Assembly: GCA_005217565.1 (NCBI GenBank)
Contig: SJCO01000005.1
Span: forward strand, 310,001 to 374,000
Direction: 5' to 3'
Source of the DNA: Puteibacter caeruleilacunae
GTDB taxonomy: Bacteria > Bacteroidota > Bacteroidia > Bacteroidales > Prolixibacteraceae
Length of the DNA stretch: 64,000 nt
Position numbers and translations under genes: made by a program. Positions 2,300 to 35,787 of this stretch are shown in pieces; position 1 is the stretch's first letter; the number at the start of each line of letters is the position of its first letter. The notes under the pieces were generated by a model. That model saw only the letters and a list, made by a program, of their open reading frames with translations. It was not told the DNA's origin and made no database searches.

Positions 2300-5200
2300 A
2301 TGTATTATGTAGATAAACTATTACCTCGCTTGATATGCGCATTAATCTTGCTGTGTTCTGTAGTGCTCAATGCCAATGCACAAAGTAAGATTATCCGTGG
2401 TACCGTAAAAGATGAAGCAGGGACTCCGATTATCGGAGCAACGGTTATTGAAGTTGACGCAAATAACCGTATGATCAATGGTACTGCCACGAATATCGAT
2501 GGGGTATATACAATAAAGTGTTCAACGAATACACCTACTTTAAAATTCTCTTTCATAGGATTTAAAGATCAGACGATCAAATTGAAAGCAGGAGAGTTGG
2601 TGGTTAATCCTACGTTGGAAGAAGAAACAAGTCAGATTGATGAGGTTAGTGTTGTTGCAGTAAAACGCGAGAAGGTGAATATGGGTTACCTTGAGCTGGA
2701 TAAGCGTGATGCAACTGGTGCAGTATCTATCGTTAATCTTGAAGAAGTAGCTCCATCGCATGTGAGTGATGTTGGAGAGATGCTTCAGGGACAGGCGGCT
2801 GGATTATTGGTAACATCGAACTCTGGAGATCCAGGTGCGGGTGTTACTATCAAAATCCGTGGATCGGCTTCACTGAACGCCAATAGTAATCCTTTGATTG
2901 TTGTTGATGGTGTTCCTGTTGAGACAGATAAGTCGTTCGATAGTCTGGAAGACTTTACCGACTATTCAAGGAGTCCGCTTTCTGATATTAATCCTGATGA
3001 TATTGAAGGGATTACTATCCTTAAAGATGCTTCTTCTACTGCGATCTATGGTTCGCGTGGTGCAAACGGAGTTATCCTGATTACTACTAAGCGTGGTAAA
3101 AAAGGGAAAACCATGGTGAACTACTCATTTAAGATGAGTACACAGCCAGGGAAAGACTATCTTCCTTTGCTTTCGGGACCTGACTTGAAAACGCTATGGT
3201 TAGAGATGGATCAAAACTCTTATAGCGCAGGAAGTCTTGGTTCAAATAACTTAACCCGTCCTGAGTTGAGAGACGATCCTACCCGTGCCGACTATGAATA
3301 TTTTAATAACGATACAAAGTGGACTGATTTCATCACTAAAGATGGTATCACCCAGGATCATACTGTAAGTGTTAGCGGTGGTGGTGATGCTGTACGTTTT
3401 AATATGAATATTGGTTTTGTTGATCAAACAGGTAATACCCTAAACACAGCCTACAATAAGTATTCTAGTTCATTTAAATTAGACTATATTCTTTCTGATA
3501 AGTTGAGATTTAGTGGTAATATCTATTTCACACATCACTTGTGGAATCGTTCAAAAGGATTTGGAAGTTATTCTGATCCATTGGCTATTGCCTATCGTCG
3601 TCCTTCATTCCTTCCTGCATTCAGTCCTGAAAATCCTGATGAATACAGTTATTATTACTGGGAGGATGAGAGTAATATAGGGAATGTGAATCCTATTGCT
3701 CTGGCGAAGAATGCAACAAATGATAAGGTGACAGATAATCTTTCTGCCAATATTTCATTAAACGCTACATTGGCTAAGAATTTATTCCTGAGAGCTTATG
3801 TGTCGTACAAGATGAGTAATACCGATTATGATGCGTTTTTCCCTTATAATGCAGTGTTACGTTCTGATGCAGAGGGTACTCCTTTGGTGTCGTGGACTGA
3901 TCCAATGGTTAACCGATTCTATAGTGGAAATTCATATTCACAGAAATTAGATCAGGAAGCAGTACTATCATATGTGCGTAAAATCAACAAGCACGACATT
4001 TCAATTATTGGGGTACAGGCGATTAACATCTCTGAAGGATCGGCATACGACTATGAAGGTTCTAATACAGGTTCTGATGATTTACAGAATACCAATGCAA
4101 CCAATCGTTGGTTAGGATTAGGTGCTTCTGAGAGTGAGCGTGTATTGATTGGTTTCCGTGGTAAATTGAATTACCAGTATGATGATCGTTATGGAATTGA
4201 TGTTGGTATGAATACCGATGCTGCTTCTAGCTTTGGACCAGATTATCGTTGGGCGTTGTTTCCAAACGTTGGGGGATTCTGGAGATTATCATCTGAGAAA
4301 TTTACAGATAACTGGACCTGGATGGATGAGTTTAAAACTCGTTTCTCATGGGGTAAATCAGGTCGTTCACCTAGTTCGGCTTACAGTCACCTGAGTACCT
4401 ATAAGCGTGGTACTAACGGATATAATGGTGGAGCTTATGTAATTCCTGGAAACACACAGCTTAAAGAGTTGCACTGGGAGACTACCGAATCAATGGATAT
4501 CGGTATTGAAATGTCGCTTTTCAAAAACCGTGTATCGGCTGAGTTAGGCTACTATAAGTCGCAAACACACGATCTGTTGACCAATCGTAGCTATCCAAGT
4601 TCATCGGGTATCAACGATAAAGACATGAAGCTACAGCGTAATTTCGGAGATATGGAGAACAAAGGTTGGGAGATGAACATCTCAGCTACGCCTATCAAGA
4701 CTAAGAACCTACGCTGGACAGTGAGAGCGAACATGGCTTTGCAGAAGAATAAGATCACCAGTTGGCCTACCGAAGAGACGGAATGGTCGGAAGCTGGTTC
4801 AGAGTCTGAATCGTTGAGTTATGGAAAAAATGATGATAAGGCATTCTATCTGCGTGTTCGTGAAGGTGACGTGTTAGGAGCATTCTACGGTTACCAGGTT
4901 GATAAGAAAATGCCAGTATATTCTACTCCTGACGATGTTAGAGTATACAGTCCTGATGGTAACGTTGTATTTGACATTGATGGAGAGCCAATGCAGAAGT
5001 ACAACAGCTACTCTCGCAAGTACTTCGAGGCAGGTGATGTAAACTATGTTGATCAAAACCATGATGGCGTGATCAACGACTTAGATATCGTTCAGTTGGG
5101 AGACTCTAATCCTGATATGTTTGGTGGTATTGGTTCAACGTTGAGCTATAAAGGGTGGACAGCCAACATTTTCTTTAACTATGTGGTTGGTAATGATATC

Positions 5201-24348: not shown

Positions 24349-26880
24349 CTATTGCACAATTGCCTTTAGCATTGTCTTTCTTGAGCGATTGTCGATGTTT
24401 CGTACTGCGATACCTAATGCTTTTCTGGTACCAACAAAAATTGCCATTTTCTTTGCCCTTGTCAGGGCTGTATAGATAAGGTTTTGATAGAGCATATTAA
24501 AATGCTGCATTACTAAAGGAATAATCACCACATCAAATTCACTTCCTTGCGACTTGTGAATGGTGATTGCGTAAGCCAGGTCGATATCTATGAGATCTTG
24601 CTTTTGGTAGTGAACCACTCTTGTTGTTTCCCCTGAATGATAAATGATTTCCAATGCCATCGCCTGGTTGTCGATCGAGGAGATGTGACCGATATCTCCA
24701 TTAAAAACCTCCAGATCATAGTTGTTTCTACGTTGAATTACCCGATCGCCAACACGAAAAACACGATCGCCGATCTGTAGGTGAGCCTTCGTACTATCAT
24801 CCGGATTGTAGGTTGCCTGAACCAACTCATTCAGATTCTTTGTGCCCATACTTCCAACCGTCATGGGAGTCAATATCTGCACTTCCATATCCTTCCCAAG
24901 GCGTTCTTTTACGGTTTTTGCATAGAGTCTGACCACCATTTGTGAAGCTATAAAACCATAGTGCAAACTTGACCAGGGATGAATTCCTATGAGGATGTTT
25001 TTCAACGCAGCAGCGTGATTTTCCGACATCAGTAACCTCTGTATATCCGCATGTAAATACTTATTTGGCACATTAAAAATATGCGACTGAACACCAGTCT
25101 GCCTCATCTCCTCAATTTCTTCCTCTGAAGTATGTTTTATATAGATATCGTCTTCCTGAATAACTGATTTATAACTATCTGAGAGATCATCAAGACCTTT
25201 CTCCCTTACAAAAGCAATACCTTCATTTTGCAGCACATACTTCATCGAGGTGGTAATCTTTTTGATAAACTTCAATTGTTCTTTCGTTGCCTCTTCTGAA
25301 TCGATAAATATGCAGTCGGCTTTTTCATTCCAGATATTAGGCTTATTCACAGGTGATTCTATTCTCGGAATTCTTCTTTTGATGATCTCATGGGCATACT
25401 TAATAATCTGACTCTCCCGTGCTTGTCGGAATACCTTTCTAAGATGGAAACAAGGCACGTTGTTACTGTCAATTAGATCTTTAAGTACATTACCTGCACC
25501 AACCGATGGAAGCTGATTAGGGTCACCAATAAACAGCACCTGAGCGGTAAGAGGGATTGCTTTTAGTAGTGACGCAGAGATAGAGATATCCAACATTGAG
25601 CACTCGTCGATAATCACAAAATCAGTTTTTAAAGGATGCTTTTCATTCTTCTTAAAGCGTCCAACATGAGGTTGCCATACCAATAATCGGTGAATGGTCT
25701 GTGCATCTTTACCAATCACCTCGCTCATCCGCTGTGCAGCTCTACCAGTAGGTGCAGCAAGTGTAACCTTCTTTTTCATGGCAATAAGTAATCTTACCAA
25801 TGCCTTAGTGGTAGTTGTCTTCCCACATCCAGGGCCGCCAGTAAGGATAGAGAAAGACTGCTGACAAGCACCAAACACTGCATGAAACTGTTCATCGCTT
25901 AATGGATATTCCTGCTGTTTGTTAAACTCTTGTAGCCAGTTTAAAATGCGAGGTTTATCAATCTTAACTGTTTGTTTCAAAAAGGAGCTCACCATTTTTG
26001 CAGTATCGAGCTCGTCGTAGTATAGCGACTTAGAATAATAGCATTTTACATCCACCTCATTCTCTGTCTTGATCCTAACCCGAAGATCATTTTCCATTTC
26101 CATGAGTGCAATTACACTTATCAGTAAGGTGGAATAGTCAGCCTTCAGTAGAGTTTTTACATCTTCCTGAATATGTTCTAACTCAAGGTAGCAATGGCCG
26201 TGCTCTCTACTTGCAGCCAAAACGTGACTAATGGCTGCACGCATGCGTTTTGGACTATCCTTTGCAATGCCCATACTACGCGCAATTTTGTCGGCTGATA
26301 AAAAGCCAATACCATAAATATCTTTAGAAAGTTGATAGGGATTATCTTCTACAATTTGGATGGCATTGTTTCCGTAAGTTTTGAATATCTTAACCGCAAA
26401 CAGGGTGCTTACACCATACTCTTGAAGAAACAACATCACATTGCGTATCTCCCTGTGTTCTGTCCATGATGCTTCAATTTGCTCGAGCTTTGTCTGCGCA
26501 ATTCCAGGCACCTCTTTCAGTCGCTCGATATCATTTTCAAACACATCAAGTGTTTCTTCACCGAAATGTTCCACAATACGCTTTGCAATCTTAGAACCAA
26601 CACCATGGATCAATCCTGAACCTATATAATTTTCCAATGCAGAAGCACTAGCGGGCTTGCGTTCAAATGTAGTGTGAGCCTTAAACTGCTTACCATATTT
26701 TGGGTGCTGTATCCATTCGCCTTCAAACTGGAGTGTAGCTCCTGGAAAAACGTTGGCTTGATGTACCGTTACTGTTATTGTCTCATGAGGTCTGTCCACA
26801 GGATTTACCCTTAAAACTGTCCAGCCGTTCTCTTCGTTGTGATACGTAACACGTTGTATGACTCCTGTGAATTTTTCCAT
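24349..26880 (-). CDS. recD2: RecD2-type SF1B DNA helicase with internal insertion
   Basis: This 843-residue helicase has an N-terminal OB-like domain (1-75) and helix-hairpin-helix segments (about 85-200: IHGVGSKIAKRIVEHFG, LKEVPGIAQTKLEQIE). Walker A is GGPGCGKT (348-355), Walker B is IIDECSMLD (423-431), and IGDPNQLPSVGAG is at 451-463. The UvrD_C_2 motif AYAITIHKSQGSEFD is at 769-783 and YTALTRAKK at 803-811. It should unwind DNA 5' to 3' independently of RecBC. Residues about 540-640 interrupt the usual path between the DPNQLP region and YGF...VQILTPM with extra sequence not typical of short RecD2 proteins. It starts 11 bp after the last HA-repeat gene and is probably cotranscribed with the array. 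Confidence 0.93.
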   Translation of the reverse strand: MEKFTGVIQRVTYHNEENGWTVLRVNPVDRPHETITVTVHQANVFPGATLQFEGEWIQHPKYGKQFKAHTTFERKPASASALENYIGSGLIHGVGSKIAKRIVEHFGEETLDVFENDIERLKEVPGIAQTKLEQIEASWTEHREIRNVMLFLQEYGVSTLFAVKIFKTYGNNAIQIVEDNPYQLSKDIYGIGFLSADKIARSMGIAKDSPKRMRAAISHVLAASREHGHCYLELEHIQEDVKTLLKADYSTLLISVIALMEMENDLRVRIKTENEVDVKCYYSKSLYYDELDTAKMVSSFLKQTVKIDKPRILNWLQEFNKQQEYPLSDEQFHAVFGACQQSFSILTGGPGCGKTTTTKALVRLLIAMKKKVTLAAPTGRAAQRMSEVIGKDAQTIHRLLVWQPHVGRFKKNEKHPLKTDFVIIDECSMLDISISASLLKAIPLTAQVLFIGDPNQLPSVGAGNVLKDLIDSNNVPCFHLRKVFRQARESQIIKYAHEIIKRRIPRIESPVNKPNIWNEKADCIFIDSEEATKEQLKFIKKITTSMKYVLQNEGIAFVREKGLDDLSDSYKSVIQEDDIYIKHTSEEEIEEMRQTGVQSHIFNVPNKYLHADIQRLLMSENHAAALKNILIGIHPWSSLHYGFIASQMVVRLYAKTVKERLGKDMEVQILTPMTVGSMGTKNLNELVQATYNPDDSTKAHLQIGDRVFRVGDRVIQRRNNYDLEVFNGDIGHISSIDNQAMALEIIYHSGETTRVVHYQKQDLIDIDLAYAITIHKSQGSEFDVVIIPLVMQHFNMLYQNLIYTALTRAKKMAIFVGTRKALGIAVRNIDNRSRKTMLKAIVQ

Positions 26881-26891
26881 GCTTAAAAATA

Positions 26892-28097
26892 TTAAAAATC
26901 TATCTTGTGATCAGTAAAGAAATCAATTTCTTTCAGTAGCTTAACTTGCTCTTTACTTAAATCTCTGCGTCGTCTTCTCTGTTCTGAAATCCATGCCCAG
27001 AGCGATCTGTAAGGCTTATTCTTCTTCGAGATACTGCACGTTCCAAACTCTTCCTTGTATGATTTTAACTCGTCATAACGCTCCATCCAATGCTGAAAAC
27101 CACGTTCACGATTAAGGCTACTTCGAAGGTTGTTGTACCCCCATATAAAGCCTATTTGATTTAATTTGCGAACCCGATCGGCAGGGATGGTATTCTTATA
27201 GCGCCGTTGTCGCTGTGCGAAAGCAATTAAAGCCTGACTGGCACCGAGGCTTTTTCTAAGCTTACAGTGACCATTTTTATTTTTGAAAGCAACCAATTCA
27301 ATAAACTTCTCCAGCCAAAGGTTTAAGGTCTGATGTTTCATATCGATACCAATCTCCCTGAAGCGACGTAATCTGTCATAGTCGAGCTTACCTTGCCAGT
27401 ACATGTGGCGTTGGTTATGATACCAGGTGTATACTTGTGAACCAACAATATCTTCCGACAAACTTACATTTCCGTATTTGTTTTTATACTCAACAAGCTT
27501 CTCGAACATCTCATCCCAGTCGAGTAGTTCCTTAAGGCGAGAATTAAAACCTATCAGCTTCAGCAGCTCTTCTCTATCTGGCTCTATTGTGTTATTGCCT
27601 ATTTTCTTCCGTTGTCTACCAATCCAATAGCCCATTGATTGCTGATCTTTGGATTTTGTTGGTAAATCAGCATTTCCATTTTTCCTTGCATAATCTACTA
27701 GTGTTATATACCTCGATAGCCACAGTTGCTCTTTGTAGGTGGTCATGTCGCGTGTTGCTTTATATTTCTCAATTGCTTGATCGATTTGTTGTTCTGTAGA
27801 TTTATCTAGATGACCGGCCGCAGGCTTTGGTACAGCATCGCAATGGGTAAGGTTGATCTCTAATACTGTTTCCATTTTTATGATGGTTAGTATTGATAGG
27901 TCGTTACTGCCACTAAGCCATTCATAAACCAAAGGAACAGGTTCTCCCATCAATTCAGCAAAATAATCTACCTCCCAGTCGTATTGAGCAAGGGTGTAGC
28001 GGACACGAGCAGCAATAGCGTCGGACTTCTTATTGAATGCCTTGTTGGATAGTTTGCTGAATTCTTCAGCTGTATTTTCTTTTATGGTGTGGTTCAT
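26892..28097 (-). CDS. XRE-HTH plus four helicase-associated repeats, array gene 6 (subtype A)
   Basis: Sixth and last array gene in transcription order. I start it at 28097 (MNHTIKENTAEEF) rather than at an upstream in-frame ATG at 28175, because this aligns with the other subtype A proteins. An HTH resembling HigA-type antitoxins (FAELMGEPVPLVYEWLSGSNDL, about 46-70) is followed by four HA (PF03457-like) repeats, each beginning with W, with a central G (NG/YG/FG) and a Q-R motif: WLSRYITLVDYARKNGN, WDEMFEKLVEYKNKYGN, WLEKFIELVAFKNKNGH, WMERYDELKSYKEEFGT. The C-terminus EIDFFTDHKIDF is diagnostic of subtype A. It is the most diverged A copy, separated from gene 5 by 120 bp and from recD2 by 11 bp. 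DNA binding is likely; function unknown. Confidence 0.85.
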   Translation of the reverse strand: MNHTIKENTAEEFSKLSNKAFNKKSDAIAARVRYTLAQYDWEVDYFAELMGEPVPLVYEWLSGSNDLSILTIIKMETVLEINLTHCDAVPKPAAGHLDKSTEQQIDQAIEKYKATRDMTTYKEQLWLSRYITLVDYARKNGNADLPTKSKDQQSMGYWIGRQRKKIGNNTIEPDREELLKLIGFNSRLKELLDWDEMFEKLVEYKNKYGNVSLSEDIVGSQVYTWYHNQRHMYWQGKLDYDRLRRFREIGIDMKHQTLNLWLEKFIELVAFKNKNGHCKLRKSLGASQALIAFAQRQRRYKNTIPADRVRKLNQIGFIWGYNNLRSSLNRERGFQHWMERYDELKSYKEEFGTCSISKKNKPYRSLWAWISEQRRRRRDLSKEQVKLLKEIDFFTDHKIDF

Positions 28098-28217
28098 TGT
28101 GTTATTGTTTTTTGTTCTCAAGCCGAACGGGCTCTTCATTTTTACCTTGACGTAAAAACGAAGCAAAAAGGTCAAGGCTGCTTTCAGGTGTATGCTACAG
28201 CCTGGTGGCTGAGAACA

Positions 28218-29450
28218 TTATGTCCCAATCTTCATCGTCATGTTATTGTCCTTGAAAAAGTCGATTTTTTTAAGATATTCGATCTGTTCATCGGTTAACA
28301 TTCCTTTTTTATAATGTTGCTTTTGCTTCTGAATCCATGTTCCCATTGAATAATGCGTTTTACTCTTTGACGAAATATAACTGGTGCCTTTCTTTATTTT
28401 ATAGGCTTTTAACTCCTCAAAGCGAACGAACCATTGTTGGTATCCTTTCACTCTTTTGGTCTCAATACTAAGCGCGTGTTTATCAAGATCCCAATCAAAA
28501 CCAATCTCATCAAGCATCTGAATGCGTTCCTCCGAAAGGCTGTCTTTCTTACGACGCTGTCTCTGCACAAAACCCATCAATTGCTTGCTGGCACCATAGG
28601 CCTCACAAACAAGCAGATGACCGTGCTGCTCTTTAAATTCAACTAACTGGTCATATTTGTCCTGCCACAGGTTCAGGGTCTGATGCTTCATGTCAACATG
28701 AAGCTTTTGCAGACGTTTAAACTTTTTCGTCTCTAACTTGCCTTTCCAATACAGTCGGCGTTGGTTTAGTAACCATGTATACAGACTAGAATCCAAGTAA
28801 TATTTAGGTACTCGTGTGTGTCCGTATTCCTTCTTAAAATCCATCAATTTTGCATACATCTCTTCCCAGGGACGTTCTTGATGTGGTTGAAAATCAAAGC
28901 CTAGTAAGCTCAGTAATTTCTTCTTTCCAGGATCCAACTTCTTTGCTGCATGTTTCTTTCTGTTCCATGAAACCCAAAACCCCATGGTTTTATAAGGCTG
29001 AGTGTGAGTAGGATGATTAACATGCCCGGTTTCTTTAAAGAAATCAATCAGCAAAAGATATTTAGTCAGCCAGCGCTGCTCCCAGCGTTTGGTCATATCA
29101 TGAGTTTTCTTGAACTTCTTAATCTCGCTGGTAAATTTCCTCTTTTTTGCAGTATCCACATAGTAAGAAGGCTCATTCGGTGCAGGTCTGCAGTGTGTAA
29201 GATCGATATCCAATGCAGTTTCCATTTTTGTGATCTCGCTTAAAGTAAGATCTCTAAAGCCACTAAGCCATGAAAAAACATCAGTGGGCGATTCTTCTAT
29301 CGCTTTAGCAAGCTGCTCAACTGACCATTCTTTTTCTTTCAAGGTATGATGAACCATATCGACAATAGCCTGTGTTTTCCTTTGAAATTCTCGCTGAATG
29401 ATATCCTCGTATGTATCTGTACCGTTTGATGTATTGTCTAAATCGCACAT
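28218..29450 (-). CDS. XRE-HTH plus four helicase-associated repeats, array gene 5 (subtype B)
   Basis: This 410-residue paralogue has subtype B hallmarks: an N-terminus with YEDIIQREFQRKTQAIVDMV, a linker FKKTHDM, and the end KKIDFFKDN plus a variable tail (NMTMKIGT). The HTH lies near residues 43-88 (VEQLAKAIEESPTDVFSWLS). Four HA repeats follow (WLTKYLLLIDFFKETGH, WEEMYAKLMDFKKEYGH, WQDKYDQLVEFKEQHGH, WFVRFEELKAYKIKKGT). It is lysine-rich and basic, which fits nucleic-acid binding. It is the most diverged B copy: its N-terminal residues lack the MNSTNTKT start shared by genes 1 and 3. It starts 11 bp after the stop of gene 4. No enzymatic motif is present. Confidence 0.85.
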   Translation of the reverse strand: MCDLDNTSNGTDTYEDIIQREFQRKTQAIVDMVHHTLKEKEWSVEQLAKAIEESPTDVFSWLSGFRDLTLSEITKMETALDIDLTHCRPAPNEPSYYVDTAKKRKFTSEIKKFKKTHDMTKRWEQRWLTKYLLLIDFFKETGHVNHPTHTQPYKTMGFWVSWNRKKHAAKKLDPGKKKLLSLLGFDFQPHQERPWEEMYAKLMDFKKEYGHTRVPKYYLDSSLYTWLLNQRRLYWKGKLETKKFKRLQKLHVDMKHQTLNLWQDKYDQLVEFKEQHGHLLVCEAYGASKQLMGFVQRQRRKKDSLSEERIQMLDEIGFDWDLDKHALSIETKRVKGYQQWFVRFEELKAYKIKKGTSYISSKSKTHYSMGTWIQKQKQHYKKGMLTDEQIEYLKKIDFFKDNNMTMKIGT

Positions 29451-29461
29451 AATTCTTTTCT

Positions 29462-30682
29462 CTAAAAATCAACACCGTTATCTATAAAAAAGTCAATCTC
29501 TCGTAGCATTTCAATCTGTTCTGGTTTTAACTCCTTTCTTCTTTTTCTTTGGGTGCTAACCCATATCCCCAGCGATCTATGCGTTTCACTTTCTCGTGAA
29601 ATATAACTTGTGCCATATTCCTCTTTATATTGTACGAGCTCGGCATATCGATTCAGCCAATGCTGATATCCTCTTTTTTGTGCGCTACGACTCAGTGGTG
29701 TATCTACTTCCCATTGGAAACCAAGGTTATCCAGTAATTGTTTGCGCTTTTTCGGCATCGTATTTTTTGAATATCTTTGAGTCCTGACAAAGCTCATCAA
29801 TTTTTCACTTGCTCCATTGGCCTTGGTTAAGTTTATATGACCATGCTCGCGTTTGAACTTTTTCAATTCAGAATAACTCTCGTTCCATTGATTCAAGGTC
29901 TGATGCCGCATTTCAATACCGATTTTTTTGAGACGCCTTAATTTATCATACTCTAGTTTCCCTCTCCAATACAATTGTTTTTGCCAAGAGAGCCACTTGT
30001 AAAGTTTTTCAGTTTTTTTGCCAGAAGGTATATTGGCATGACCGTGATTAAATTTGTATTCGATTAGTTTTCCATACATTTCCTCCCAGTCATTTCTGCT
30101 CTTGGTGAGAAAGTTAAAATTAAGGAGTTTAAGCAATTCCCTTTTATCTAGATCAATGGTACCCAATTTCTCCATTTCTCTTTGTTTGCAGGTCCAATGT
30201 CCCATAGATTTTTGATTCTTCCATTGTGTCGGAAAATTAGCATGACCATATTCTTTGAAAAAGTCGACGAGTATAAGATACTTTGCTAACCATTGTTGCT
30301 CATAGTTGGTGGTCATATCGTGTTTTACCCTATAAATTTTAATCGCTTGATCGATCTGTTTTTTAGTAAGCTCATCCAAAAAGCCTTCTTCCTCTTCAGT
30401 TGTTTCTTCATAATCATCATCGCAATAGGTGAGGTCGATATCCAATACCATTTCCATTGTTATTATTTGCCTCATCGTTAGGTCGTATGCGCCACTCATC
30501 CATTCGTAAACATTGGTAGGTGATACACCCATCATTTCAGCAAACTCTTTAAGCGACCAACCATGTTCATCCAATGCTTGGCGGACTCTAGCAACGATTG
30601 CTCGTATATTTTTATCTGATAATTTCTCAACGGAAGCAGTTAGATCTTCTGTTGTATATTCGGTTATACTTTTATCATTCAT
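29462..30682 (-). CDS. XRE-HTH plus four helicase-associated repeats, array gene 4 (subtype A)
   Basis: This 406-residue paralogue gives the clearest domain map. The HTH is at 41-85 (LKEFAEMMGVSPTNVYEWMSG), and HA repeats are at about 131-191, 199-258, 266-324 and 342-399. Each repeat carries W-x(5)-L...G-H/T and a Q-R/K-x-x-Y/R core. The end EIDFFIDNGVDF marks subtype A. It is closest by eye to gene 2, sharing DFFKEYGHANFPT versus DFFKENGHANFPT and LEYDKLRRL. A run of acidic residues (DDDYEETTEEEEG, 88-100) separates the HTH from the repeats, an expansion not seen in the other copies. It follows gene 3 after 62 bp. Confidence 0.87.
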   Translation of the reverse strand: MNDKSITEYTTEDLTASVEKLSDKNIRAIVARVRQALDEHGWSLKEFAEMMGVSPTNVYEWMSGAYDLTMRQIITMEMVLDIDLTYCDDDYEETTEEEEGFLDELTKKQIDQAIKIYRVKHDMTTNYEQQWLAKYLILVDFFKEYGHANFPTQWKNQKSMGHWTCKQREMEKLGTIDLDKRELLKLLNFNFLTKSRNDWEEMYGKLIEYKFNHGHANIPSGKKTEKLYKWLSWQKQLYWRGKLEYDKLRRLKKIGIEMRHQTLNQWNESYSELKKFKREHGHINLTKANGASEKLMSFVRTQRYSKNTMPKKRKQLLDNLGFQWEVDTPLSRSAQKRGYQHWLNRYAELVQYKEEYGTSYISRESETHRSLGIWVSTQRKRRKELKPEQIEMLREIDFFIDNGVDF

Positions 30683-30744
30683 GATGCACTATTACAGGTA
30701 ATCTATTTTCAAACATCCAGTCTTGACCTATGGACGCTTATAAG

Positions 30745-31974
30745 CTACTCTACATTAGGCTTTTTTTCCATGCCATTGTCCTTGAAAAAATCAATCTTCT
30801 TCAGTAATTTAATTTTCTCAGGTCCTAATTTATCACGTTCGTGTTTTTGGGTTCTAATCCATATGGCCAGTGATTTATATCTTTCATTTTTTAGCGAAAT
30901 ATAGCTGGTTCCATACTTTCCTTTAAATGCTTTTAGGTCGGCATAGCGTTCCAACCAATGCTCCAGAGCTTTTTTCTTTACCATTTTCGCATGAAATGTA
31001 GGGTCAGGTTCCCAAATAAAACCGATCCTATTAAGCAATTCTTTACGCTCTTTCGACATGGTATTTTTTGCTCTTCGCTGTGAGGCAACAAATCCTATTA
31101 ATTGGGGACTTGCTCCATAAGCACGACCAATAAATAAATCACCGTGCTTTTCTTTAAACTCAACTAACTGGATAAACTTCTGTTCCCATGAATTCAGTGT
31201 CTTTGGCTGCATTTTTACCCCCAGCTGTTTTAGTCGCATAACTTTTTTGATATCCAGTTCGCCTTCCCGATATTTATACTGCTGATTATGCAACCAATGA
31301 TATAGATCTTTAGTCTGATCAGTACTGACAACGTGCACAGTTCCCATTTCAGCCTTATATTTTTCAAGACGAGTGTACATGTTATTCCAGCTTGTCTCAG
31401 CTCTGGTTAGACCTAGGTTAATTCCAAGGACTTGCAGTAATTCTTCTTTATTTGAATCTAATGTCCCATTTCTGTAGTACTTCCTGTTGCGTTTAATCCA
31501 TCCATACAATGGATCTTCAAATTTCTTTTTCACTGGAATTTTCGCATGACCATTTTTATTGACAAAGTGTACCATCTCGTTGTACCAGGTTAACCAGCGG
31601 TGCTCAAGTAAATTGTTCATATCATGAGTTTTCTTGAATTTCTTAAGACCGTAGGCGATTTTCTGTTTCGCTGAGGTATCAAGGTATCCCGATGGTATAC
31701 TGGGTGTTTGTTTACAGTTGGTAAGATTAATACCCAGGGCAATTTCAAACTTTGCAATATTGCTTAGCGACAAATCATTAGAACCACTCAGACAACGGTA
31801 AAGATTAGTGGGAGGTTCTCCCAGTATGTTAGCCAATTGTTGGACAGACCATCCTTTTTTATCCAGGTTCTGATGAATCACCTTAATTATAGTCTGTGTC
31901 CTTTTATGAAACTCTTTCTCAATAATTTCGCTGAATTTATCAGCTCCGATTGTTTTAGTATTAGTACTGTTCAT
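30745..31974 (-). CDS. XRE-HTH plus four helicase-associated repeats, array gene 3 (subtype B)
   Basis: This 409-residue paralogue begins MNSTNTKTIGADKFSEIIEK, nearly identical to gene 1, and ends KKIDFFKDNGMEKKPNVE. The HTH (VQQLANILGEPPTNLYRCLSG, about 44-64) has Cys in place of the aromatic residue seen at YRW/YEW in other copies. Four HA repeats follow (WLTWYNEMVHFVNKNGH, WNNMYTRLEKYKAEMGT, WEQKFIQLVEFKEKHGD, WLERYADLKAFKGKYGT). Its 5' leader and first about 45 coding bases match gene 1 almost exactly while the rest has diverged, pointing to recent duplication or conversion limited to the 5' end. It starts 25 bp after the gene 2 stop. Confidence 0.86.
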   Translation of the reverse strand: MNSTNTKTIGADKFSEIIEKEFHKRTQTIIKVIHQNLDKKGWSVQQLANILGEPPTNLYRCLSGSNDLSLSNIAKFEIALGINLTNCKQTPSIPSGYLDTSAKQKIAYGLKKFKKTHDMNNLLEHRWLTWYNEMVHFVNKNGHAKIPVKKKFEDPLYGWIKRNRKYYRNGTLDSNKEELLQVLGINLGLTRAETSWNNMYTRLEKYKAEMGTVHVVSTDQTKDLYHWLHNQQYKYREGELDIKKVMRLKQLGVKMQPKTLNSWEQKFIQLVEFKEKHGDLFIGRAYGASPQLIGFVASQRRAKNTMSKERKELLNRIGFIWEPDPTFHAKMVKKKALEHWLERYADLKAFKGKYGTSYISLKNERYKSLAIWIRTQKHERDKLGPEKIKLLKKIDFFKDNGMEKKPNVE

Positions 31975-32002
31975 AATTATTGTGACTTGAAGCGTAGGAT
32001 TA
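31975..32002 (-). promoter_or_regulatory. Duplicated 28-nt leader upstream of array gene 3
   Basis: These 28 bases are identical to 34432-34459 upstream of array gene 1. The tract includes the stop codon (TTA on the plus strand) of array gene 2. It may carry a translation-initiation or regulatory signal, or just mark the duplication junction. Confidence 0.6.
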
Positions 32003-33205
32003 AAAATCTATTCCGTTATCCTGGAAGAAATCAATCTCCCTCAGCAATTCAATTTGCTCTGGTTTTAAATCTTTCCTTCTTTTTCTCTGCTCACTAACCC
32101 AAACTCCTAATGATTTATGCGTTTCGCTTCTTAAAGAGACATAGCTCGTGCCATACTCTTCCTTATATTCTCGCAATTCTTCATAATGCGTTAGCCATAA
32201 TCGATGCGATCGCCTATTAATACTACGACTCCAGGGAGAATCAAGCTCCCATTCAAATCCCAGTCTATCTAAACGTCGTTTACGATCTTTGGGCATGGTG
32301 TTTTTATACATTCGTTGTTGGCTTGCAAACCTTTCCAGACTGTTACTTGCTCCATTACCCAGGGATATGTGCATATGGCCATGCTCTCTTTTAAACTTCT
32401 TTAATTCGGCAAACTTCTCGTTCCATGAATTTATGGTCTGATGCCTCATATTGATCCCAATTTTTCTGAGTCGTCTTAATTTATCATACTCAAGTTTCCC
32501 ATTCCAGTATGAGCTTTTCTGAGTTAGTAGCCAATCGTACAGAGATTCATCTACAATGCTTGGAGTGATATGTACATGTCCGTGTTCAAATTTAAACGCG
32601 ATAAGCTTAGCATACATATCCTCCCAATTATATGTTATCCTTAGAGAAAAGTTAAAATTGATGAGTTTTAGTAATTCCTTCTTATCAAAATCTAATTTCC
32701 CCCGTTTTTCCGTTTCTCTTTGTTTATTGATCCAATATCCCATTGATATTTGATTCTTGGAATTTGTAGGGAAATTAGCATGACCATTTTCTTTAAAAAA
32801 GTCAATCAGAGTAAGATACTTTGAAAGCCATTGTTGCTCCGCAAGCTTGGTCATATCATGTTTAACCTTGTAGACTTTGATCGCTTGGACGATTTGTTTT
32901 TCTGTAAAATCATCAAGATAATCGGACTCCTTTTCAGGAACTGATTCACAAGATGTGAGATTGATACCCAACACCAATTCCATCATTATTATTTGTCTCG
33001 TAGTTAGGTTAAAAGCACCGCTCATCCATTCGTAGGCCGTAGTTGTTGGAATACCCATCATTTCAGCAAACTCTTCAGCAGTCCAGTTATTCTTTTTTAG
33101 AGTGTGGCGAACTCTGGCGGCAATTGCATGTGTGTGTGTGTCAAATCGTTTTTCAACTGAAGAAGAGAACTCTTCAGTTTTATAGTCTTTTATATTATTG
33201 TTCAT
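32000..33205 (-). CDS. XRE-HTH plus four helicase-associated repeats, array gene 2 (subtype A)
   Basis: I start this gene at 33205 (MNNNIKDYKTEEF), not at the in-frame ATG at 33217, because it aligns with genes 4 and 6 and gives a 4-nt ATGA overlap with gene 1, typical of translational coupling. The HTH is AEEFAEMMGIPTTTAYEWMSG (about 44-64). Four HA repeats follow (WLSKYLTLIDFFKENGH, WEDMYAKLIAFKFEHGH, WNEKFAELKKFKREHGH, WLTHYEELREYKEEYGT), and the end is EIDFFQDNGIDF. It is very similar by eye to gene 4 through most of its length. The coupling to a subtype B gene supports the view that A and B proteins are made in fixed proportion and may work together. Confidence 0.87.
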   Translation of the reverse strand: MNNNIKDYKTEEFSSSVEKRFDTHTHAIAARVRHTLKKNNWTAEEFAEMMGIPTTTAYEWMSGAFNLTTRQIIMMELVLGINLTSCESVPEKESDYLDDFTEKQIVQAIKVYKVKHDMTKLAEQQWLSKYLTLIDFFKENGHANFPTNSKNQISMGYWINKQRETEKRGKLDFDKKELLKLINFNFSLRITYNWEDMYAKLIAFKFEHGHVHITPSIVDESLYDWLLTQKSSYWNGKLEYDKLRRLRKIGINMRHQTINSWNEKFAELKKFKREHGHMHISLGNGASNSLERFASQQRMYKNTMPKDRKRRLDRLGFEWELDSPWSRSINRRSHRLWLTHYEELREYKEEYGTSYVSLRSETHKSLGVWVSEQRKRRKDLKPEQIELLREIDFFQDNGIDF

Positions 33206-34431
33206 GACTGCAACCATACATCCTTAATTCCATTATCCTTAAAAAAATCAACCTCTTTTAGCAATCTAATTTTCTTAGGCTCTAATACATCTCGCTTTCG
33301 CCTTTGTTTTGTGATCCATAATGAAAGTGATTTGTGTTTCTCACTTTTGGGGGATATATAGCTTGTGCCATATCGCTTTTTATATGCTTTTAATTCATCA
33401 TAGCGAACTAACCATTGTTTATACTTCCTTTCCTTAAGAATACGATCTCTAATAGTTGGATCAATTTTCCACATGAAATCGATTTTATTTAGCAATTTTT
33501 TGCGCTCATTCGACATGTTGTCTTTTGCTCTTCGTTGTGTTCTGGCAAATTCTACGAGCTCTGAACTGGCGCCAAGAGTACGACAAACATATAGATGTCC
33601 GTGTTTTTTCTTAAATTCAACCAACTGAGAATATTTTTCCTCCCATAAATTTAAGGTTTTATGTCTCATATTCACACCAACCTGTTTAAGTCGCATAATT
33701 TTCGATACCTCCAGTTTACCTTTCCAATACCGATATCGCTGACCACTTATCCAATGGAATAGTTCCTTATCTTTATTTGTTCTGGTTATTCTCACGTTAC
33801 CCACTTCGGCTTTGTATTTTACAAGCCTTGCATACATCTCTTCCCAGTGTTCCTCCGGCTTTGGTATACGATAACTTATTCCGAGTATTTGGAGAAGTTC
33901 TTCTTTGTTAGAATCTAACTTCCCTTTAGAGTAACGCCTTTGGTTACGACGAATCCACTCTTTCAACGTTGCGTGGGTCATAGTACTCATTGGAACATTT
34001 GCATGACCATTTTCATTATAATAATCGATCAGGTGGTTATACCATGTGAGCCAACGATTCTCATATTTATTGTCCATGTCATGAGTTTTCTTGAATTGTT
34101 TAATCCCGTTGGTAATTTTTCTTTTAGTAGAAGCATCAAGATGACCTGATGGCATTTGCGGGGCGCGTTTACAATTAGTGAGATTAATGTTGAGCGCTGT
34201 CTCAAACTTTGCAATATTTCGTAGTGATAAGTCATTGGCGCCACTTATCCATCGGTAAACATCGGTGGGTGGTTCTTCCATCAAGGAAGCTAATTGATCG
34301 ACTGTTAAACCTCTTTCATCTAAGGTGTAACGGATCATATTTATAATGGCTTGTGTTTTTCTGCGAAACTCTTTCTCAATAATATCGCTGAATTTATCAG
34401 CTCCGAATGTTTTAGTATTAGTACTGTTCAT
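33202..34431 (-). CDS. XRE-HTH plus four helicase-associated repeats, array gene 1 (subtype B)
   Basis: First gene of the array, 409 residues. It begins MNSTNTKTFGADKFSDIIEK and has an HTH (VDQLASLMEEPPTDVYRWISG, about 44-64). The conserved LSLRNIAKFETALNINLTNC segment follows, then four HA repeats (WLTWYNHLIDYYNENGH, WEEMYARLVKYKAEVGN, WEEKYSQLVEFKKKHGH, WLVRYDELKAYKKRYGT). It ends KEVDFFKDNGIKDVWLQS. HA domains are known accessory DNA-binding modules, usually fused to helicases; here no helicase domain is present. The upstream 230 bp should hold the array promoter, but I see no clear TTTG/TAnnTTTG match. Function unknown. Confidence 0.87.
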   Translation of the reverse strand: MNSTNTKTFGADKFSDIIEKEFRRKTQAIINMIRYTLDERGLTVDQLASLMEEPPTDVYRWISGANDLSLRNIAKFETALNINLTNCKRAPQMPSGHLDASTKRKITNGIKQFKKTHDMDNKYENRWLTWYNHLIDYYNENGHANVPMSTMTHATLKEWIRRNQRRYSKGKLDSNKEELLQILGISYRIPKPEEHWEEMYARLVKYKAEVGNVRITRTNKDKELFHWISGQRYRYWKGKLEVSKIMRLKQVGVNMRHKTLNLWEEKYSQLVEFKKKHGHLYVCRTLGASSELVEFARTQRRAKDNMSNERKKLLNKIDFMWKIDPTIRDRILKERKYKQWLVRYDELKAYKKRYGTSYISPKSEKHKSLSLWITKQRRKRDVLEPKKIRLLKEVDFFKDNGIKDVWLQS

Positions 34432-34459: not shown

Positions 34460-34499
34460 GCTTATAAAGCGCCATCCGACTCACAAAATTATCAATAAG

Positions 34500-34632: not shown

Positions 34633-34655
34633 TTGTATACGAATGAACACCAACG

Positions 34656-34689
34656 GTTGAAAGGTTTGCAGTGCTGCAAACCTTTCAAC
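34656..34689. terminator. Perfect 16-bp inverted repeat directly after the OYE stop codon
   Basis: GTTGAAAGGTTTGCAG pairs perfectly with CTGCAAACCTTTCAAC across a 2-nt centre. It abuts the stop codon at 34690. The minus strand downstream lacks a T run, so it may act as an RNA 3'-end stabiliser or a weak terminator rather than a classic intrinsic terminator. Confidence 0.6.
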
Positions 34690-35787
34690 TTATTTCTTCC
34701 TTTTTCTATCTATTATACAGATATTACCACCAGGAGCTAAGCATTTATTACATGCTACACAACGTGGTTTCTTTTCTGGATTATTCATCCATTTATTCGG
34801 TAGATCTGGTTCAGAATGTAGCGTTCTCGAAAGAGAGAAGTAAGAGATATTGCTATCATTAAGAATCTCTTCCATGATTCCCAGATTTCTGTTGCCGCCA
34901 ACTAATATAATTGGAATGGTAAGCTGCTCAGCAATCTTGCTTACCTGGCGCTTGTAGTACGACTGCCTTTCTTGCTTTAATATGCGCGGTTTAAGGGCCG
35001 AATTCCCACTCTCTGGATCAATGTTACCTCCACTAAATTCAATTGCATCTACGCCTCTTTTTTCGAGCTCTATCGATAGCCACAGGCTCTCCTGAACAGT
35101 TAATCCGTTTTCTCCCCATTCATCATCGCAATGCATTTTTATCAATACAGGGAAATCTTCACCAGCCATTGCCTTCATGGCCTCAAATGATTCGAGAATA
35201 ATCCTTCCCCTATTTTCGATAGATCCCCCATATTCGTCAGTTCGCTTATTAAAGTATGGCGACAAGAACTGTGAAAACAGATAGCCATGAGCAGCATGGA
35301 TTTGGACGCCATCAAAACCAACCTTCCTGGCTCTTAGGGCAGCCTTTGCCATGCCTTCAATAACAGATTTTATATCATCGTGAGTCATTTCAACGGGAGC
35401 AAATCCATTTGTTGGATTCTTTACCGCTGAAGGCCCCCATACTATGCGTCCTTCGGTAGGCATACTGGTTGTTGATCCTCCATATCCAACCTGAATAAAT
35501 GCATTGGCATTGTTACTATGGATAATGTCGGCAAGCTCTTTTAGTTTATCAACATGCTTGTCGGCACTGATGCTAAGTATTCCCGGATAGGTCCTTTCTT
35601 CAGGAAGGATATTGGTAAATTCAACGATAACATTTCCCACTCCACCTTCCGAAAGTCTTTTGTATTGCTCCTTTACAGCATCGGTAACAAAACCATCATC
35701 GTCGGCCATGCCCAACCAGGTAGCTGAGCGCCACAGACGATTTTTTAAGGAGATGTTCCCTAATTTTGTTTCTTCAAATATCTTCAT
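34690..35787 (-). CDS. Old Yellow Enzyme family NADH:flavin oxidoreductase
   Basis: This 365-residue FMN enzyme has the OYE TIM-barrel. Recognisable features are LKNRLWRSATW at the N-terminus, GFDGVQIHAAHGYLFSQFLSPYFNKRTDEYGGSIENR (start of motif near 160) with the substrate-binding HxxH-type residues, and PIILVGGNR near 300. A C-terminal CVACNKC motif (about 346-352) resembles the cysteine cluster of Fe-S-containing family members. I chose the ATG at 35787; an upstream in-frame ATG would overlap the preceding gene. It reduces activated alkenes or similar xenobiotics. It is the last gene of an AraC, ABM, FMN-reductase, OYE operon. Confidence 0.9.
   Translation of the reverse strand: MKIFEETKLGNISLKNRLWRSATWLGMADDDGFVTDAVKEQYKRLSEGGVGNVIVEFTNILPEERTYPGILSISADKHVDKLKELADIIHSNNANAFIQVGYGGSTTSMPTEGRIVWGPSAVKNPTNGFAPVEMTHDDIKSVIEGMAKAALRARKVGFDGVQIHAAHGYLFSQFLSPYFNKRTDEYGGSIENRGRIILESFEAMKAMAGEDFPVLIKMHCDDEWGENGLTVQESLWLSIELEKRGVDAIEFSGGNIDPESGNSALKPRILKQERQSYYKRQVSKIAEQLTIPIILVGGNRNLGIMEEILNDSNISYFSLSRTLHSEPDLPNKWMNNPEKKPRCVACNKCLAPGGNICIIDRKRKK

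Follow-up and report, generated by a model that had tools for sequence, protein, structure and literature searches.

What kind of system is encoded by six adjacent genes, each joining an HTH module to four HA domains, in the genome of Puteibacter caeruleilacunae? The genes lie in the window, which here means the whole stretch of 64,000 nucleotides that was analysed. The set of six same-strand ORFs that the sequence-only reading had described at 26892-34431 is present on the minus strand, encodes proteins of 401-410 aa with intact reading frames in all six genes, and follows in transcription the order B-A-B-A-B-A that had been proposed; the termini of the A and B types also agree with the earlier description. 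The features are listed below in the order of transcription.

34655-34690, no strand assigned: hairpin with a stem of 16 pairs, lying between array and upstream gene, a probable terminator
34484-34498, minus strand: promoter-like element TTATTGATAATTTTG, an exact word found three times in the genome
34432-34449, minus strand: leader element CTTCAAGTCACAATAATT, directly before the B3 ATG
33202-34431, minus strand: B3, XRE-type HTH and four HA, 409 aa, first gene of the array
32000-33205, minus strand: A3, HTH and four HA, 401 aa, its ATG overlapping the B3 stop (ATGA)
30745-31974, minus strand: B2, HTH and four HA, 409 aa
29462-30682, minus strand: A2, HTH and four HA, 406 aa
28218-29450, minus strand: B1, HTH and four HA, 410 aa
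26892-28097, minus strand: A1, HTH and four HA, 401 aa when started at the ATG in line with the paralogues
24349-26880, minus strand: RecD2-type SF1B DNA helicase, 843 aa, TIGR01448

The gene starts are likely starts, set by homology; for A1, the TTG start at 28175 in the mechanical ORF list is probably wrong.

Each array protein consists of an HTH and exactly four HA domains, as had been claimed. The Pfam HA family (PF03457) matches four stretches in all six proteins, with 155-179 bits against a curated cut-off of 28.4 and whole-protein E values from 6e-46 to 2e-53; no match of these proteins to an enzyme family is credible by its Pfam score, HTH and HA being the only domains. The genome holds 42 HA matches in 11 genes, 24 of them in the array, and HA was found in only 14 of the 393 genomes of the order sample, host included; the array is therefore not a product of chance.

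The Pfam HTH_3 cut-off of 23 bits is passed by two of the six proteins (A2 with 35.4 bits, A3 with 23.9), and the other four fall below it (14.5-22.2 bits), which we count against the reading preferred below. The PDC-M64 HTH models of PADLOC (PDC-M64B/C) match all six, with best E values per protein of 2e-12 to 2e-19. The B3 model (pLDDT 80.6, pTM 0.31) contains a predicted HTH of the Cro/C1 type, whose region (residues 20-95 approximately) gives a middling VIA Z of about 9 to C.Esp1396I, DdrO and the 434 repressor, and homology and fold place the array HTH with type II antitoxins (HigA/HipB) and restriction controllers. Judged from its sequence, this HTH is kin of the antitoxin-like proteins of PDC-M64, a PADLOC candidate system; the HTHs of the fusions are 20-42% identical to four free-standing relatives. 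Also present in this genome are all three genes of a PDC-M64 cassette (L105), on the contig that bears the array, and a solitary relative of 86 aa (L104). The partner proteins in the PDC-M64 loci L105 and L033 match no Pfam family; our impression is of a resemblance to a toxin like HigB and a chaperone like SecB. RRNPP regulators bind peptide through C-terminal TPR repeats; comparison with them (PlcR, ComR, Rgg; TPR tail) gave weak Foldseek rows only, with E 0.05 and worse, and Pfam assigns the repeats of the array to HA, not to TPR.

The HA repeats are of fixed, position-specific types: for 46 of 46, the nearest neighbour is the repeat at the same position in another protein, in a count for which the two HA of the shortened copy c9b had already been assigned by eye to types 3 and 4. 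Given these position-locked types and the constant number of four HA in the array, a modular, interchangeable HA code was rejected. The part after the HTH is basic in ten fusions (pI 9.4-10.0), and together with the XRE fold this predicted property supports the DNA-binding character suggested earlier. Sequence comparison relates the HA block to 2kta, a domain of solved structure labelled 'putative helicase' (E 9e-7); a model of the HA part alone retrieved no chains from Foldseek or VIA, and the HA fold is not placed by structure. The statement that HA domains normally sit beside helicases applies to several proteins of other genomes, but none of the 11 HA genes of the host encodes a helicase. 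Streptomyces TtrA is a further putative carrier of HA domains.

The separation of A from B, a check named by the sequence-only reading, is found in the 12-protein tree (support 85/86 and 83/85), in a tree of nine full-length fusions, where A with c9a stands against B with the C53 pair at 99/99 and B alone has 84/85, and in HTH-only and HA-only trees. Copies 2 and 3 are sisters within A and within B, and the branching order is equal in both subtrees; the unit of tandem duplication was thus the B-A gene pair, as had been supposed, and the strict B-A order has been retained over at least two duplications. The heteromers of A and B and the diversified targets that had been suggested further are putative; pN is lower than pS in nine of nine gene pairs tested, with synonymous divergence near saturation, no hypervariable domain stands out and the HA repeats are position-locked. 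From about -28 to +60, B2 and B3 are nearly identical, synonymous sites included, which marks a recombination tract.

The 15-base word TTATTGATAATTTTG has three exact copies in the 8.0-Mb genome; an HA locus follows closely on each copy, the array being one, and the word is common to loci whose coding parts have diverged strongly; the promoter-like element at C53 is not significant (score 12 against a mean of 11.2 and a maximum of 16 in shuffles). The leader CTTCAAGTCACAATAATT also precedes B2 (31975-31992) and, with differences, c9b. With at most one mismatch, the leader word CTTCAAGNNACAATNATT occurs five times, as does its reversed control, and its three exact copies are the HA ones; recombination may account in part for the leaders that loci have in common. 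The half-sites TATTGTGAYTT, which lie inverted about the B3 promoter, show no excess in the window (five against 5.4 expected). The Bacteroidetes promoter consensus is composed of TTTG, a spacer and TANNTTTG; in this form it has three matches in the window, against 3.2 expected, and none near the array. The hairpin scan that includes the probable terminator gave 12 sites overall, against 10.8 in shuffles.

The sequence-only reading had left out the RecD2 gene, as well as the relationship of the HTH to antitoxin-like proteins and another pair elsewhere in the genome, one gene of which is A-like. The RecD2 gene scores 811 bits with TIGR01448 (equivalog cut-off 500) and starts 11 bp past the A1 stop on the same strand; from strand and spacing it is probably the last gene of the array transcript, and it may be a partner of A and B. 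Among the listed ORFs of at least 80 aa, none that lies between the array genes on their strand has the size of a PDC-M64 partner. Other genomes (loci read in G074 and G146) contain relatives of this helicase, 80% and 70% identical, that no HA gene adjoins.

Elsewhere in the genome, the second pair (C9) is composed of c9b, a shortened copy with two HA as against four, and the downstream A-like gene c9a, whose grouping with A is supported at 99/99 in the tree of nine rows, though at no more than 56/66 in that of 12 rows. C53 is a divergent pair, and c150s has four HA (HA4) and no HTH. By eye, no helicase gene was seen near the C9 and C53 pairs in the stretches read. A strong PADLOC match lies within about 5 kb of all three other HA loci (Cas9; a reverse transcriptase; the AAA ATPases PDC-M55A and HEC-02A), against at most 3 of 112 control proteins at E 1e-30 from 13 random 15-kb regions, in a small test with hand-picked HA-locus proteins that gives 0.007-0.053 depending on how loci are counted. 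The Cas9 match (1236 aa) exceeds the size limit of this control, and the reverse transcriptase, best matched by a generic RT model, may belong to an ordinary retroelement. The array itself has no evident defence island around it; its neighbours are genes for fructose-bisphosphatase and an HGLS-type protein (from models) and flavin oxidoreductase genes (by eye).

The host is the sole sampled genome with an HTH–HA fusion; the A1-profile searches scored at most four candidates per genome in overlapping samples, one list comprising matches of E 1e-15 or better. In named-species genomes, scanned with three short peptide patterns, four of 373 matched stretches are relatives, namely HA proteins in which no HTH was seen by eye. 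A close phage relative was rejected, with no match in phages and no relative among 600 candidate stretches in viral contigs, and so was a close plasmid relative: 175 plasmid records match, all below 60% identity, and among the matches listed the HA part is hit, most of the proteins concerned being annotated as DEAD/DEAH helicase or helicase associated. TtrA is treated in PMC8743542. Among the papers listed, at title and abstract level, we found no study of bacterial HA arrays and, as had been stated, no described system with this layout; nor did the literature searched yield a study on the recognition target of HA domains.

We tentatively read the array, with a probability somewhat short of even, as a genome-specific family of self-controlled two-module DNA-binding proteins, probably paired, acting on invading or mobile DNA. 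This reading builds on the observed architecture, pair-wise duplication, fixed repeat block and element common to three loci, and on relatives of both modules recognised by sequence in defence-type genes. The three B-A pairs and then RecD2 would be expressed as one operon. The N-terminal antitoxin-type HTH, as a dimer (A-A, B-B or the heteromer A-B), would most likely bind the conserved element at its own and its relatives' promoters, so that the copies would control themselves and one another; the four basic C-terminal HA domains would grip further DNA, by analogy with what is presumed for the HA array of restriction-like enzymes. A pair may thereby bridge or coat DNA, or mark it, and the DNA in question would most plausibly be invading or mobile; RecD2 would be either a motor or simply a neighbour that is expressed along with the pairs.

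The 11-bp spacing on the same strand, the several putative recognition subunits that precede one motor and the fusion of HA arrays elsewhere to nuclease-helicase halves would also fit a split, methylation-free, restriction-like or anti-mobile-element machine, in which A-B would be the target-recognition subunits and RecD2 the shared motor, with labour divided as within single-chain HA-helicases. However, the C9 and C53 pairs have no helicase gene nearby (by eye, in the stretches read), in G074 and G146 the RecD2 orthologue stands among other neighbours, with no HA gene, and no nuclease gene was recognised in the operon, and we consider such a machine unlikely. Its most elaborate form seems to us decidedly improbable: a multi-specificity, methylation-free split machine against foreign DNA, in which three A-B heteromers that differ in DNA preference would be interchangeable subunits for recognition, working with one RecD2 motor, and whose parts would come from an antitoxin HTH and from the half of HA restriction helicases that serves recognition. 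Tandem expansion of a DNA-binding gene after its acquisition, whether neutral or driven by dosage, with pairing and RecD2 adjacency of no special function, would agree with the single sampled genome, the B2-B3 recombination tract and the shortened copy at C9, but we give it a low probability in view of six intact genes whose pN is lower than pS at a synonymous divergence near saturation, the B-A order kept through at least two duplications and the promoter-like element in common.

Membership of the array HTH in the PDC-M64 HTH family, with the full cassette on the same contig and the lone 86-aa relative, could indicate orphan antitoxin-like regulators, with the HA block in place of the antitoxin tail, that would work in trans on cassettes of the PDC-M64 type or repress the promoters of these; yet no PDC-M64 partner was recognised beside the array among ORFs of at least 80 aa, the fusion HTHs show the 20-42% identity given above, and this idea is very doubtful. 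The HA blocks might instead bind RNA or single-stranded DNA, the proteins being nucleic-acid chaperones that work with RecD2 in replication or repair. The RecD2 helicase family is tied to repair, the assignment to a DNA helicase family (TIGR01448) and the high pI after the HTH would suit this role, but the HTH module points to duplex DNA and the RecD2 loci of G074 and G146 have no HA gene, which makes it highly improbable. For the preferred reading of self-controlled DNA-binding pairs, the free-standing paired HA proteins with a candidate operator would offer a tractable route to what HA domains bind, and the array may show the recycling of antitoxin-type HTHs into new DNA-binding systems.

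Compared with known systems, the array has the tandem PF03457 HA domains of HA-repeat nuclease-helicases (L044, 1650 aa; L016, 1464 aa), but those are single chains with a restriction-type nuclease-helicase and 10-13 HA (three scanned), whereas array proteins have an HTH, a fixed four HA and no enzyme domain. In L044, L016 and L018 the N-terminal half resembles a type IIG/ISP-like nuclease-helicase (PADLOC REase_MTase_IIG, 250-336 bits) and the rest is an HA array; the nuclease and SF2 helicase parts of a type ISP/IIG-like chain are absent from the array proteins. The helicase at 24349-26880 is a clear RecD2 SF1B member and adjoins an HA gene, unlike the two close relatives whose loci were read. 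With the three-gene PDC-M64 cassette and its antitoxin-like XRE protein the array has the HTH module in common, but its tail is replaced by the HA block and no companion gene (PDC-M64A/B, PDC-M64C) was recognised next to it, the neighbours being RecD2 and a flavin oxidoreductase gene (by eye). HigA/HipB antitoxins and restriction controller (C) proteins share the HTH fold, whereas the array has a long C-terminal HA block and multi-copy pairs. No cognate toxin gene was found, the same-strand ORFs of at least 80 aa in the operon being the six genes and RecD2 only, and no restriction or methyltransferase gene was recognised beside it (ORFs of 20000-42000 by eye; Pfam on three downstream genes); A-B as a toxin-antitoxin pair was rejected because both have the same HTH and HA parts. 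Programmable proteins of the TALE/PPR kind have interchangeable repeats in variable number, in contrast to the fixed, position-locked four of the array. The HTH-less HA4 proteins, c150s and a 306-aa protein of G312 (54% identical to each other), lack the HTH and are single-copy where seen, but carry the four HA types of the array in the same order.

Six ORFs of 401-410 aa, each with four Pfam HA domains (PF03457), follow one another on contig C150 of G000, the genome that contains the window (8.0 Mb in 220 contigs). They are called, in order of transcription, B3, A3, B2, A2, B1 and A1 after their two subtypes, and they lie among metabolic genes, directly ahead of a helicase gene:

26892-34431, minus strand: the six-gene array of HTH-HA fusions
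24349-26880, minus strand: full RecD2 helicase gene, starting 11 bp after A1

Two of the six proteins score above the Pfam HTH_3 cut-off and four below it, and all six are matched by the HTH models of PDC-M64, a PADLOC candidate defence system whose three-gene cassette includes an antitoxin-like XRE protein (top match of each at E 2e-12 to 2e-19). In an AlphaFold2 model of B3, built on an alignment of six rows (pLDDT 80.6, pTM 0.31), residues ~20-95 form a Cro/C1-type HTH, with many VIA rows at Z 8-9. The B3/A3 junction is an ATGA overlap; the remaining gaps are 25 bp (A3-B2), 62 bp (B2-A2), 11 bp (A2-B1) and 120 bp (B1-A1, presuming that A1 starts at its ATG). A hairpin of 16 pairs (34655-34690) is located between the array and its upstream gene.

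The sequence-only reading had this layout right and overlooked the RecD2 gene. Close RecD2 relatives were found in two of 20 related genomes searched, G074 (80%) and G146 (70%), and in the 17 kb around them no ORF of at least 100 aa other than RecD2 matches any window ORF, HA genes included (E 1e-5); as a consequence, the adjacency of HA array and RecD2 is seen in G000 only. RecD2 may conceivably be a functional partner of the array.

The 42 HA matches of G000 are distributed between the array (24), contig C9 (6), contig C53 (8) and C150:410.7-411.5k (4), and HTH relatives lacking HA domains occur on the contig of the array:

L011 7691-9776 (C9): HTH-HA pair, upstream gene (c9b) with two HA domains only, downstream gene (c9a) A-like
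L012 7118-12530 (C53): divergent HTH-HA pair
L013 2-7638 (C150:404-411.6k): HTH-less gene with four HA domains (HA4), ~3 kb from a Cas9 gene
L105 16-3274 (C150 ~437k): complete PDC-M64 cassette

Placement of c9b as B type is not rejected (p-AU 0.26), and the members of the C53 pair are each other's closest relative (100/99). Within ~5 kb of the C9 pair are an AAA ATPase (PDC-M55A-like) with its partner and a HEC-02A/B pair; the C53 pair lies ~0.6 kb behind a reverse transcriptase (RT) gene and a protein of 330 aa to which Pfam assigns no family. The array HTH has two strong HA-less relatives, a lone 86-aa protein and the HTH of the L105 cassette, plus three weak ones. By eye, the genes on either side of that cassette are restriction-endonuclease-like and type I specificity-like.

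The array grew by duplication of gene pairs. The sequence-only reading had proposed this unit and expected A genes to stand apart from B genes in a tree; both hold. In the tree of 12 proteins (10 HTH-HA, 2 HA4) each subtype is set off by a branch of its own (85/86, 83/85), A2 is sister to A3 and B2 to B3 (100/99 in both cases), and the types also stay separate in HTH-only (97/94) and HA-only (97/96) trees, while grouping each B with its own neighbouring A is rejected for all three pairs (p-AU 0.02, 1e-40, 9e-5). Nine full-length HTH-HA proteins divide into A plus c9a versus B plus the C53 pair (99/99); the A+c9a branch reaches only 56/66 in the 12-row tree. Identity is 62% for A2-A3, 56% for B2-B3 and 37-42% between types, and the array pairs tested have dS of 1.5 or more, with synonymous sites near or at saturation, and pN of 0.22-0.40. 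B2 (30745-31974) and B3 (33202-34431) are nearly identical, synonymous sites included, only from about -28 to +60, a stretch best read as a probable recombination or conversion tract.

Each of 46 HA repeats in the 12 proteins has as nearest relative the repeat at the same position of another protein, the two repeats of c9b having been assigned types 3 and 4 by eye for this count; compared between proteins, repeats in equivalent positions average 41-49% identity and those in different positions 25-27%. Therefore, the four HA domains were copied together as one fixed block, and this position matching rules out an exchangeable set of repeats.

The predicted structure of a single HA domain consists of three helices (pLDDT 89.9, alignment of the 24 window repeats); a sequence relative of solved structure is 2kta. 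In the 10 HTH-HA fusions the part after the HTH has a pI of 9.4-10.0, and the HTH part is not basic in most. DNA binding by these proteins is well founded in homology.

Outside G000, PF03457 was found in four of the other family genomes, one match each (5/140 with G000), and in 14 of 393 order genomes (G000 included), 11 of them over the cut-off. Among the matches listed, the full profile covers both HTH and HA block in G000 only (1/393 order, 1/395 phylum and 1/395 class genomes, in overlapping samples); a scan of named genomes gave four HA proteins, none with an HTH by eye. The expansion of HTH-HA genes is thus seen in G000 alone among the sampled genomes. Outside G000 the closest relative comes from G312, an HA4 protein of 306 aa without HTH that is 54% identical to the HA4 protein of G000 and adjoins a gene labelled by eye as nucleotidyltransferase-HEPN-like.

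Three of the HA loci share a promoter-like element. G000 has three exact copies of the word TTATTGATAATTTTG, one preceding the array, one the C9 pair and one the HA4 gene; at one mismatch there are seven more places, versus three for its reversed control (up to one mismatch). The leaders of B3 and the HA4 gene agree at 35 of 36 bases; for the C53 leader the match to the element is not above shuffles. A second leader word, CTTCAAGNNACAATNATT, is present without mismatch at three places, the leaders of B3, B2 and the C9 pair, and at five places with one mismatch allowed, the same number as its reversed control. One of the seven one-mismatch TTATTGATAATTTTG copies, which may be due to chance, lies on the strand opposite to the Cas9 gene, ~150 bases upstream of it (L013 ~3865-3879). 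The shared elements would constitute a common promoter and an operator bound by the HTH-HA proteins themselves, and such self-control is among the best-supported readings, together with heteromers of A and B and action on foreign DNA.

A strong PADLOC match lies within ~5 kb at all three other HA loci of G000, in a scan of eight hand-picked proteins: Cas9 (7e-66), RT (4e-40, a generic RT model), PDC-M55A (2e-44) and HEC-02A (2e-106). For the control, 13 random 15-kb regions on seven contigs were used (14 drawn, one overlapping dropped). Of their 115 proteins of 170-1100 aa, 112 were covered, three being omitted because of a residue cap; four ORFs above 1100 aa were excluded, a limit that the Cas9 match exceeds. 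At E 1e-30 no more than three control proteins matched, with DndA, SspA and mad3 hit once apiece, the first two perhaps being the same protein. With one or two control regions counted as matches, the exact test gives 0.007-0.018 for three of three loci, or 0.022-0.053 when the array enters as a fourth locus lacking a match, which is no more than suggestive of a location near defence genes.

Both modules also occur in other contexts. In three proteins (L044, L016, L018) the part preceding the HA array, which makes up the rest of the chain, scores 250-336 bits against type IIG/ISP-like restriction models, over their nuclease-helicase half; the L044 protein is the following:

L044 4336-9288: 1650-aa protein, 13 HA domains behind a restriction-type nuclease-helicase half

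At L047, HA is joined to a PLD-like nuclease part (DrmC model, E 1e-6). Other HA proteins have as neighbours, by eye, a gene resembling DNA methyltransferases (L048), one resembling DUF1016 (L045) or ordinary genes (L046, L049). A 1133-aa protein (L052 7722-11123), with no PADLOC match at E 1e-5, carries three C-terminal HA domains in a sensor-like position, behind what by eye are a restriction-endonuclease-like N-terminal part and an NTPase-like middle. Free-standing relatives of the HTH belong to three-gene PDC-M64 cassettes at L033 and L105 and, by eye, at L028, L035, L038 and L040.
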